Origin: Burkholderia sp.
GTDB lineage: Bacteria; Pseudomonadota; Gammaproteobacteria; Burkholderiales; Burkholderiaceae
Direction of reading: 5' to 3'
Length of the DNA: 5,137 bases
NCBI GenBank assembly: GCA_028292565.1
Contig: JAQGMD010000248.1
Location: 1 to 5,137, forward strand
Translations under genes and position numbers: made by a program
Notes under the pieces: generated by a model
Databases searched by the model: none
Told to the model about the DNA's origin: nothing
What the model saw: only the letters and a program-made list of their open reading frames with translations
Part shown: in pieces, positions 2,160 to 5,137 of the stretch
How positions within the stretch are numbered: the first letter of the stretch is position 1
How the letters are laid out: each line of letters begins with the position of its first letter

Positions 2160-2948
2160 GTGTCCGCAATTAAAAGGAACAACGTAAGAATCTCCGGATC
2201 CGGTCAGCAAGGTATGGTCTTTGCCCATGGTTACGGCTGTGACCAGGCCATGTGGCGGGCCGTGGCGCCCGCCTTTGAAGCGGAATACAAGGTAGTCTTG
2301 TTCGACCAGGTCGGTCTCGGCGGTTCCGACCACTCCCGGTATGATTTCGACAAGTATGGAACGCTGCAGGGATATGCGAGCGATGTGCTCGAAATCTGCG
2401 ACGAACTCGCGCTTGCGGATGCGATATTCGTCGGTCATTCGATCGGCGCGACCATCGGCATGCTTGCGGCCATCCGGTCGCCCCGGACCTTCGCAAAGCT
2501 GGCCCTGGTCGCCCCTTCGCCATGCTTTATCAATGATGAGGGCTACACGGGCGGCTTCAGCAGGAGCGATATCGACGACCTGCTGGCGCTCCTCGACAGC
2601 AACTACCTTGGCTGCTCTTCGACGATGGCGCCGGCCATCATGGGCAATCCGGATCGCCCCGAGCTTGCCAGCGAACTGACCACCAGCTTCTGCCGGTCTG
2701 ACCCTGAAATCGCAAAGCATTTCGCGAGTGTTACATTTCTTTCGGATGTGCGGGCGGAGCTCCGCCTGCTGGTCCAGCCTGCGCTGGTGCTTCAGTGCTC
2801 GGAAGATCCCATTGCGCCACGGGCAGTCGGAGAATACATGCATGCCCGGTTGCCCGACAGCCGGCTCGTCCTGATCGACACCGACGGGCACTGCCCGCAT
2901 ATGAGCGCGCCCGCAGAGACCATTGCGGCAATCAAAGCCTTTCTGTAG
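2160..2948 (+). CDS. rsbQ: RsbQ-family alpha/beta hydrolase
   Basis: A 262-residue cytoplasmic alpha/beta hydrolase closely resembling Bacillus subtilis RsbQ, and more distantly the plant D14/KAI2 receptors. The nucleophile Ser94 sits in GHSIG (92-96); Asp216 in QCSEDPIAP (212-220) and His244 in GHCPHMS (243-249) complete the triad. Other RsbQ-like blocks are FAHGYGCDQ (21-29), VAPAFE (35-40), FDQVGLGGSD (48-57), APSPCFIND (118-126), NPDRPE (163-168) and FCRSDPEIA (177-185). Length and GTG start match the family, with no signal peptide. In B. subtilis, RsbQ is needed for RsbP, a PAS-PP2C phosphatase, to activate sigma-B in energy stress, apparently by acting on or delivering a small hydrophobic ligand; its physiological ligand is not settled. 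Here the next gene, 11 bp downstream, also starts with an RsbP-like PAS domain but carries c-di-GMP domains. The hydrolase is therefore probably the ligand-handling partner of that sensor. Confidence 0.92.
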   Translation: MSAIKRNNVRISGSGQQGMVFAHGYGCDQAMWRAVAPAFEAEYKVVLFDQVGLGGSDHSRYDFDKYGTLQGYASDVLEICDELALADAIFVGHSIGATIGMLAAIRSPRTFAKLALVAPSPCFINDEGYTGGFSRSDIDDLLALLDSNYLGCSSTMAPAIMGNPDRPELASELTTSFCRSDPEIAKHFASVTFLSDVRAELRLLVQPALVLQCSEDPIAPRAVGEYMHARLPDSRLVLIDTDGHCPHMSAPAETIAAIKAFL

Positions 2949-2959
2949 ACGGCCATACC

Positions 2960-5137
2960 ATGCGAACAGGCAGCACACCCGGGCAGGAGTCGCTCCAGCC
3001 GATAGAAGAACGTGCGGAGGATATTTATGAAAACGCGCCGTGCAGCCTCCTTTCCGTTTTGCCGAACGATCTCATCATCAAGGCAAACCAGACCTTCTTC
3101 GCGTGGACCGGCTACGCCGAGGCTGAAGTCATCGGTCGAATGCGGTTCAACGACTTGCTGACTCCGGCCGGCCGCATCTTTCACCAAACACGATTCGGCC
3201 CGGTTCTGCAGTTGCAGGGATCCGTCGAGGAAGTCGCCCTCGAGATCCTGTGCAAGGACGGAAAACGCCTACGCGTTTTTTTCAGCGCCATCCTGAAAAG
3301 CGACGGCGACGGGCAGCCCCTCGTGAGGCGGATAATCCTGTTTCATGCAAGCGACCGACGCCGCTATGAGGAAGAATTGCTGGCCGCCCGAAAAAAGGCG
3401 GAATCGGCGAGTGCGGAACTGCGCGAACTGAACCGGCAACTGATACAAAGCAACGCCGCCCTGCATGAACAGGGTGAGCGCCTGCGCGTCACCCTGACCT
3501 CCATAGGCGATGGTGTCATTGCGACCGATACGGCCGGCAGAATCACCTATATGAATCCGGTCGCTGCGCGGCTCACCGGCTGGGGCGAGCATGAGGCGAT
3601 CGGGCTTCCCTTGCCCGAGGTGTTTCATGTGGTCGACGATGACTCCGGCGGCATTGCGCCGAACCCGGTGGATCTGCTCTTGCGCGGCGAGGAAGCACGC
3701 GCGCTGGACCATATGACCCTGCTCAGGCGGGACGGTGAACGGCTCTCGGTCAAGGACTCGGCCGCGCCGATCCGTGACGAACAGGACCGCGTGATAGGCG
3801 TGGTGCTGGTTATCCGGGACGTTTCCCAGGCCCGCGCTATGGCTGCCAAAATCAGCTATCAGGCAACTCACGACGCGCTGACCGGCCTGATCAACCGTCG
3901 CGAATTCAACCGCCGCGTCGAACTGGCGTTGGAGTCTGCGCGGCTGGAGGACGCTCAGCATTCGCTGCTGTACCTGGACCTGGACCAGTTCAAGGTGGTG
4001 AACGATACCTGTGGACACGGCGCCGGCGATGAATTGTTGCGGCAATTGTGCGTCGTCCTGCGAAGCAAGCTGCGCAAGGGCGATACGCTGGCGCGCCTCG
4101 GCGGCGACGAATTCGGTGCGCTGCTCGCGCATTGTGCGGGCGAACAGGCTCTGCAAGTTGCGGACACAATGCGGAAAGCGGTCAAGGCTTTCCATTTCGT
4201 ATGGATGAACAAGGTGTTCCCGATCGGCGTGAGTATCGGCGCGGTGACCCTCGGCGACGATGGCGCCACGCCTGCCGATGTCCTGCGCATGGCCGACGCT
4301 GCCTGCTATGTGGCCAAGGACATGGGCCGCAATCGGGTTCATCTGTATGCCCACGACGACAAGGAACTGGAAAGGCGCGCAGGCGAGATGGGCTGGGTTG
4401 GCCGGATCCAGAAAGCGCTCAACGAACAAAGGTTCGAGCTGTATTCACAAAAAATCATCGCGCTCGGGGAGAACGCGCCGGGCGATGCGCATTACGAAGT
4501 GCTACTGCGATTGCGCGACGAGAACGGGAACATGGTGTCCCCGATGGCGTTCATCCCGGCAGCGGAGCGTTACGGCTTGATGCCGAAGATCGATCGTTGG
4601 GTGATCACGAATGCGTTCAGCCGATATGCAGCGCATTATCGACAAGGTGCATATAGTGCGCAGTGTGCGATCAATCTTTCTGGAACGACGATCAGCGATA
4701 CCGGCTTCCTCGGCTTTTTAAGGTGCGAGTTCAAGCGGCACGCCGTTCCGCCGGACCGCATCTGCTTCGAGATCACCGAAACAGCGGCGATCGCCAACCT
4801 GACCCGGGCGGCAGCGCTGATGGACGAACTCAAAGCCATGGGATGCCGCATCGCGCTGGATGATTTCGGCAGTGGTATGTCATCGTTCGCTTACCTCAAG
4901 CACCTTCCTGTCGACTACCTGAAAATTGACGGCGGCTTCGTCAAGGATATCGTGGACAACCCGATCGACCGTGCAATGGCCGAATCGATCAACCACATCG
5001 GCCACGTGATGGGCATCAAGACCATTGCGGAGTTCGCGGAGAACGACAGCATCCTCGATGAATTGCGCAGGATAGGCGTCGACTTTGCGCAGGGGTATGG
5101 CGTCGAGAAGCCCCGGCCGATGTCCGGCGGCGGGCAA
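2960..5137 (+). CDS. PAS-PAS-GGDEF-EAL cyclic-di-GMP signalling protein, 3' end cut by window
   Basis: The frame is open from the ATG at 2960 to the window edge (726 codons, no stop). Order: RsbP-like PAS (about 20-131), coiled coil (about 133-176), second PAS (about 173-292), GGDEF (about 298-463), EAL (about 478 to the end). The diguanylate cyclase site looks intact: Asp340, Asn348, Asp357 and GGDEF at 381-385, with an inhibitory RKGD (372-375) five residues before it. The phosphodiesterase site also looks intact: EVLLR (513-517) in place of EALLR, Asn572, Glu604 in FEITE, DDFGSG (634-639), Lys655 and Asp657 in LKID, Glu691 and Gln711. No membrane segment or signal peptide is seen, so it is probably cytosolic. 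QGYGVEKPRPM near the edge is the usual end of an EAL domain, so few codons should be missing. The start lacks a clear Shine-Dalgarno sequence and lies 11 bp after the hydrolase stop, suggesting translational coupling. The net direction (synthesis or breakdown) cannot be told from sequence. Confidence 0.93.
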   Translation, partial: MRTGSTPGQESLQPIEERAEDIYENAPCSLLSVLPNDLIIKANQTFFAWTGYAEAEVIGRMRFNDLLTPAGRIFHQTRFGPVLQLQGSVEEVALEILCKDGKRLRVFFSAILKSDGDGQPLVRRIILFHASDRRRYEEELLAARKKAESASAELRELNRQLIQSNAALHEQGERLRVTLTSIGDGVIATDTAGRITYMNPVAARLTGWGEHEAIGLPLPEVFHVVDDDSGGIAPNPVDLLLRGEEARALDHMTLLRRDGERLSVKDSAAPIRDEQDRVIGVVLVIRDVSQARAMAAKISYQATHDALTGLINRREFNRRVELALESARLEDAQHSLLYLDLDQFKVVNDTCGHGAGDELLRQLCVVLRSKLRKGDTLARLGGDEFGALLAHCAGEQALQVADTMRKAVKAFHFVWMNKVFPIGVSIGAVTLGDDGATPADVLRMADAACYVAKDMGRNRVHLYAHDDKELERRAGEMGWVGRIQKALNEQRFELYSQKIIALGENAPGDAHYEVLLRLRDENGNMVSPMAFIPAAERYGLMPKIDRWVITNAFSRYAAHYRQGAYSAQCAINLSGTTISDTGFLGFLRCEFKRHAVPPDRICFEITETAAIANLTRAAALMDELKAMGCRIALDDFGSGMSSFAYLKHLPVDYLKIDGGFVKDIVDNPIDRAMAESINHIGHVMGIKTIAEFAENDSILDELRRIGVDFAQGYGVEKPRPMSGGGQ

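Follow-up and report, generated by a model that had tools for sequence, protein, structure and literature searches.

An RsbQ-type hydrolase paired with a PAS-PAS-GGDEF-EAL protein in Burkholderia sp.: a further example of the RsbQ-PAS module

In this study, a 5,137-nucleotide stretch of DNA from Burkholderia sp. (contig JAQGMD010000248.1, hereafter the window) was found to carry an RsbQ-type alpha/beta hydrolase gene followed by a gene for a protein with two PAS domains, a GGDEF domain and an EAL domain. The two genes probably constitute a sensing module in which the hydrolase serves as receptor and docks on the first PAS domain (PAS1) to alter cyclic di-GMP (c-di-GMP). The locus adds an example to the known RsbQ-PAS module; it is no new system. 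Nadezhdin, Brody and Price (2011, PMC3183031) described 45 RsbP-type PAS domains adjoining RsbQ and fused to a phosphatase, a histidine kinase or a diguanylate cyclase, with a phosphodiesterase domain also present in three of the cyclases. The first-pass annotation of the window had proposed that a hydrolase-PAS input module is portable and has its output exchanged, and had allowed that such pairings might already be in the literature. The exchange is supported by our tally of outputs and was already published; since PMC3183031 describes the module including this very domain order, the idea is not new. A paper of 2025 (PMC12143880) has restated the modular exchange of outputs. The ligand of RsbQ and its mode of signalling were left open in the 2011 account, and the later literature examined does not settle them.

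The hydrolase gene and its PAS-GGDEF-EAL partner

The hydrolase gene (2160..2948, + strand, GTG start, 262 aa) was assigned from its open reading frame (ORF), homology and alignment. Its top PDB match by phmmer is B. subtilis RsbQ (1wom, 300 bits, E 8.6e-89), followed by Olei00960 (232 bits) and then by plant KAI2/D14-type proteins. The catalytic triad was reported as intact at first pass and proved to be so, as Ser94 in the GHS motif (codon 2439..2441, +), Asp216 (2805..2807, +) and His244 (2889..2891, +) are invariant in the 20-sequence alignment of the window hydrolase with 19 relatives. Judged by sequence, the plant KAI2/D14 proteins share this alpha/beta-hydrolase clade, scoring 151-201 bits among the 60 matches listed; the likeness to strigolactone/karrikin receptors pointed out earlier stands as a family-level resemblance, but it does not identify the ligand. 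In plants, the known partners of KAI2/D14 are F-box and SMXL proteins and not PAS proteins. The hydrolase stop at 2948 is separated from the ATG of the PAS gene at 2960 by the 11 bp gap (2949..2959, +) noted before, and both genes are likely to be carried on one transcript.

The downstream gene (2960..5137, +; 726 aa) reaches the window end without a stop codon. Its product has a public homologue, P0121, named as a Burkholderiales protein from a metagenome-assembled genome, which is 99% identical over PAS1 and 727 aa long; hence the window gene is probably short of its last codon and stop alone, and Burkholderiales is the likely order of the window. PAS1 (residues 20-131, 3017..3352) was placed by downstream-ORF matches, profile comparison and an AlphaFold2 model. 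It is followed by a long charged helix (residues 130-167, 3347..3460), seen in the AlphaFold2 model and a putative signalling helix or coiled coil, and by a generic second PAS domain (PAS2, residues 173-288, 3476..3823; Pfam and profile comparison). Further, Pfam and a motif scan placed a GGDEF domain (residues 302-459, 3863..4336), with the GGDEF motif and an RKGD (RxxD) before it, and an EAL domain (residues 482-718, 4403..5113) with EVLLR, NLS, EITET, DDFGSG, KID, AEFAE and QGY motifs, all on the + strand. By the roles usually given to these motifs, the catalytic signatures of both GGDEF and EAL are present in the window protein. No SpoIIE (PPM) domain was matched by Pfam in this protein, unlike the RsbP phosphatase, and the suggestion that a second PAS and GGDEF-EAL domains stand in place of the PP2C phosphatase agrees with the domains found.

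By sequence comparison, PAS1 is of RsbP type, as had been supposed. The reference was a profile of nine actinobacterial phosphatase-linked PAS1 domains, B. subtilis RsbP not included, against which the window PAS1 scored 164 bits (rank 43 of 161 targets), whereas six second-PAS domains, the window PAS2 among them, gave -1.7 to 13 bits. The comparison of hidden Markov models (HMM-HMM) recommended at first pass gave the same answer: the five-sequence group of the window matched the phosphatase-linked set at E 1.2e-53 and the second PAS domains at 3.5e-5. The reading of PAS1 as a generic PAS domain is ruled out by these two comparisons. In Pfam, PAS1 is weak (PAS_3, best stretch 39-120, no single stretch significant), and a PDB search with the PAS1 profile gave other PAS proteins (31 sequences) and no chain called RsbP. 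AlphaFold2 modelled residues 1-168 as a confident PAS fold with a C-terminal helix of 38 residues at 130-167 (pLDDT 94.8), the alignment holding the window sequence and 89 of 112 diverse PAS1 sequences, themselves picked from 162. No DIT motif closes PAS1, whose last residues are LFHASDRRRYEEELL, while the end of PAS2 carries a DIT-like DVS. The PAS1 end is typical of the set, Arg133 being present in 127/127 and Glu137 in 126/127 of the others compared.

The traits listed for the class in PMC3183031 are an RsbQ homologue immediately upstream, an RsbP-type PAS as the most N-terminal domain, no DIT motif, and as output a PPM phosphatase, a histidine kinase or a GGDEF domain, to which EAL may be added; a potential coiled coil follows the PAS, with exceptions among multi-PAS and EAL proteins. 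The window pair has RsbQ upstream, an N-terminal RsbP-type PAS without DIT motif and a GGDEF-EAL output, and a helix is predicted after its PAS1. With B. subtilis RsbQ-RsbP it shares, besides the hydrolase match, the gene order and a PAS at the N-terminus with a helical region behind it; RsbP differs in its PPM (PP2C) phosphatase output to sigma-B and in having no second PAS, GGDEF or EAL. The described arrangement closest to the window is that of A1SX34 of Psychromonas ingrahamii, where RsbQ lies directly upstream of an RsbP-type PAS, a heterologous PAS and a tandem cyclase and phosphodiesterase; it is another organism, and the likeness is drawn from the description in PMC3183031. In case of Noviherbaspirillum soli (L007), the same gene pair with the same domain order by Pfam was found, the hydrolase being 61% and the output protein 55% identical to those of the window. 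Locus L121 (genome G019) also has the gene pair, with PAS1, GGDEF and EAL found by script.

Recurrence of the pair and its outputs

A PAS domain matching the window PAS1 (query: window residues 1-140) occurs in the directly downstream ORF at 71 of 80 public RsbQ loci at E <= 1e-6. They are the top 80 out of at least 586 relatives, some of them sharing a genome. Of the other nine, one lies in a broken frame (L038, Rhizobium sp. Root1212, in which PAS1 and kinase of the pair are split across frames) and eight have another gene. With the window and 116 more loci, which came from one family around Noviherbaspirillum soli, from four genomes reached through loci and from two class-level places, the survey covered 197 distinct RsbQ loci; an adjacent RsbP-type PAS was detected at 163 and was missing at 34. 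The PAS1 profile for this survey was built from 127 of the same loci and P0122. In the family around N. soli, RsbQ was found in 99/294 genomes at E <= 1e-70. Sampling more widely added little, with RsbQ in 3/369 genomes of the class at E <= 1e-60, G001 itself included, and a PAS1 search of 5.8 billion proteins, in which candidates must share exact words, gave 5 matches among 323 candidates.

The tabulation of downstream outputs that had been called for was made for the 163 paired loci by scripted phmmer with seed domains. The histidine kinase is the commonest output in this sample (127) and not the phosphatase (9); GGDEF+EAL occurs at 15 loci, the window included, GGDEF alone at 6 and a Ser/Thr kinase at 1, while at 5 no output was recognised. 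For the window protein and 71 of the other 162, Pfam found HATPase_c in 56/72, SpoIIE in 9, GGDEF in 2, EAL in 2 and, once, a protein kinase domain. As the loci are skewed to the best relatives and to one family, the output shares are not unbiased. The pair recurs in other genomes, 14 further GGDEF+EAL and 6 GGDEF loci included, and a cyclase output is thus seen in 21 of the 163. Two refuting conditions named by the first-pass annotation, a generic PAS1 and a pair not conserved in related genomes, were put to the test, and both came out in favour of its idea.

The Ser/Thr-kinase output was found in Nannocystis bainbridge (L024:5799-7592), where the protein encoded downstream of RsbQ combines an RsbP-type PAS with a Ser/Thr protein kinase domain. 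It lies outside the three output classes given in PMC3183031. RsbQ was found in 1/29 genomes of the order of this organism, in the same genome, hence the variant rests on one locus.

It could be argued that the two genes are neighbours by chance, a metabolic hydrolase beside a c-di-GMP protein that has nothing to do with it and carries an ordinary PAS. The PcaD, BioH and RutD models of NCBIfam do match the hydrolase, though far under their cut-offs. The retention of the pair at the 71 public loci, the RsbP type of PAS1 and the co-divergence given below speak against it and make this explanation extremely improbable; chance adjacency as such is ruled out by the recurrence of the pair in both surveys.

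Probable coupling of the hydrolase to PAS1

The two partners were found to diverge together. At 125 of the 127 kinase-linked loci, pairwise distances correlate with rho 0.75 for RsbQ-PAS1, 0.38 for RsbQ-HATPase and 0.50 for PAS1-HATPase, and with equal column numbers the values are 0.66-0.70 for RsbQ-PAS1 vs 0.33-0.40 for RsbQ-HATPase. The split-half rho of HATPase is 0.75-0.82, so the low RsbQ-HATPase correlation is not noise. In a Mantel test, the largest of 200 label permutations reached 0.092 vs 0.77 observed. The divergence of PAS1 therefore keeps closer to that of RsbQ, which is encoded apart, than to that of the kinase domain in its own protein, and direct hydrolase-PAS coupling is supported by this co-divergence.

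In B. subtilis, the hydrolase triad of RsbQ is required and RsbQ contacts the PAS domain of RsbP (PMC3183031). In the F-alpha helix of RsbP, F55A and Y59A weakened the RsbQ interaction in yeast two-hybrid; F55A also weakened RsbQ binding in pull-down, and the Y59A protein was present at 50-60% of the normal level. An AlphaFold2 model in PMC12143880 puts RsbQ at the PAS-linker interface. The window hydrolase would likewise act as a receptor that probably binds and perhaps hydrolyses a small molecule. Its predicted docking site on PAS1 is the F-alpha/linker face (F-alpha at model residues 69-86, 3164..3217, +, by AlphaFold2, presumably equivalent to the RsbQ-contact helix of RsbP). This contact is suggested by B. 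subtilis and is supported by the co-divergence. By analogy with RsbQ-RsbP, the helix after PAS1 would relay the change through PAS2 into the GGDEF-EAL part, which would thus come under hydrolase control, and c-di-GMP synthesis or breakdown would change as output.

A somewhat unlikely alternative, corresponding to Model 1 of PMC3183031, is that the hydrolase converts the small molecule and the product enters the PAS1 cavity, PAS1 being the real sensor. The triad required in B. subtilis (PMC3183031) is conserved here, and PAS1 is predicted as a complete PAS fold whose Foldseek neighbours include ligand-binding PAS domains such as the FAD-containing NifL, which would suit such a delivery. The co-divergence points to coupling but does not separate delivery of a product from docking of the receptor.

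Several observations weigh against hydrolase docking on PAS1 in the window protein. The co-divergence data cover kinase-linked loci, not cyclase-linked ones, and among the papers listed by our literature searches there was no experiment on a c-di-GMP-linked RsbQ pair. An RsbP-type PAS or STAS-like gene is lacking in the fetched stretch at 26 of the 197 RsbQ loci (25 from the family survey, one from the class search), so RsbQ can stand without a PAS partner. Further, two of the nine class-typical residues are changed in the window PAS1, namely Arg78 (3191..3193, +) at the Tyr59 equivalent and Arg105 at the Pro86 equivalent, RsbP numbering being transferred from the text of PMC3183031 by spacing and motif and not by sequence alignment. 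A change of Tyr59 in RsbP weakened the RsbQ contact (PMC3183031), and the window has Arg at this place. In the comparison set, His occupies the Tyr59 position in 108/127 and Pro the Pro86 position in 116/127; the nine residues are a 75% consensus, not each of them being required (PMC3183031).

These changes raise the question whether the c-di-GMP branch has drifted from RsbQ control, with Arg78 and Arg105 ending the contact and the gene order left as a relic. His or Tyr is missing at the Tyr59 position in 16/22 cyclase-linked PAS1 domains vs 11/142 others; equally put, it is present in 6/22 (the window and P0122 counted) vs 131/142 (Fisher 1e-10), the 5 loci whose output was not recognised being counted as non-cyclase. 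The split follows the presence of EAL, with His/Tyr in 0/16 GGDEF+EAL PAS1 domains and His in 6/6 GGDEF-alone domains. L007 and L121 differ from the window in having Gln at this position and retaining Pro at the Pro86 position. On the other hand, P0122, which has the same architecture as the window protein, replaces the Tyr59 residue by Lys and the Pro86 residue by Arg, so that the variant seems to be maintained, and the window keeps the triad and 7/9 class residues while the adjacency persists in the 21 cyclase-linked loci. The association also cannot be parted from shared descent: of three independent pairs on starred branches of the RsbQ tree, on average 1.9 agree and none opposes (p 0.5). 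Drift out of RsbQ control is accordingly considered improbable. An adaptive rule of output-specific His/Tyr loss was rejected in the same way, the raw count being strong but inseparable from descent, and with few independent pairs the association is kept as an observation and a lead.

The best FastTree of the 163 RsbQ sequences needs no fewer than 9 output changes, and 5 for the cyclase label, of which starred branches force 3. The starred inner branches number 55 of 160, and the flagged long branches include L122, L123 and L156, all with GGDEF+EAL. The rows nearest to the window RsbQ are the cyclase-linked L121 and L007, with no starred support. In a tentative wider reading, RsbQ would be a bacterial ligand receptor of general use, re-wired again and again to phosphatases, kinases, c-di-GMP enzymes and the Nannocystis Ser/Thr kinase. 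One RsbQ lineage of Hymenobacteraceae would have lost the PAS and would act on a STAS protein without it, and the docking helix would have been remodelled in the GGDEF-EAL branches, that of the window among them.

Other RsbQ neighbours and significance of the pairing

Upstream of the hydrolase, the window holds a phosphatidylethanolamine-binding-protein family gene (98-757, - strand), a DUF2242 protein gene (735-1367, +) and a c-type cytochrome gene (1403-1879, +), with no sign of module membership. The RsbQ copies elsewhere that have neither PAS nor STAS neighbour include L086, L105, L141-L143, L147, L149-L151, L154, L155, L159 and L160, and by eye a TatD-like DNase gene lies near up to nine such loci. 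At L125, RsbQ stands beside a GGDEF-EAL gene in which no RsbP-type PAS was detected and whose start seems GAF-like by eye.

The eight public loci with another gene (L005, L015, L025, L029, L032, L035, L053 and L056) belong to Rufibacter, Pontibacter or Adhaeribacter, and in them RsbQ is followed by a conserved protein of about 134-151 aa. Pfam SpoIIAA-like remained under cut-off for this protein (E 0.09 in 2/5 tested, no match in 3/5). The best AlphaFold2 model, from eight sequences, had pLDDT 90, with 2/5 models poor. Foldseek placed SpoIIAA first in the PDB for it (1thn_B, E 8.4e-4, probability 1.00), two matches alone being at or below 0.001 and RsbS and RsbV standing lower down. Among 100 Hymenobacteraceae genomes, RsbQ was found in 85 at E <= 1e-60, with a total of 137 matches, and the STAS subfamily in 39 at E <= 1e-52, two places having an internal TAG. 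At 39/39 STAS places, a same-strand RsbQ match precedes by 57-109 nt, counted between alignment ends. For this test, 39 of the 137 RsbQ matches were taken, namely those sharing a contig with a STAS place, and as neighbours of RsbQ had served to define the subfamily, the cut-off favours RsbQ-adjacent members. Three genomes checked for distant STAS paralogues had 6 to 9 each, at <=164 bits vs >=232 for the subfamily. A literature search found no report pairing RsbQ with STAS in Bacteroidetes, and one on Hymenobacter, Pontibacter and Nannocystis gave no RsbQ mention among the matches listed. This protein, of SpoIIAA fold (STAS) by its model, is possibly an unreported RsbQ partner in the sampled Hymenobacteraceae.

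If functional, the RsbQ-STAS pairing would link RsbQ to a protein of partner-switching type by a shorter path. The co-divergence of RsbQ and PAS1 supports direct hydrolase-PAS coupling across phyla. A pair with c-di-GMP output may offer a simple biochemical readout for ligand screening of this hydrolase clade, including the plant karrikin/strigolactone receptors.

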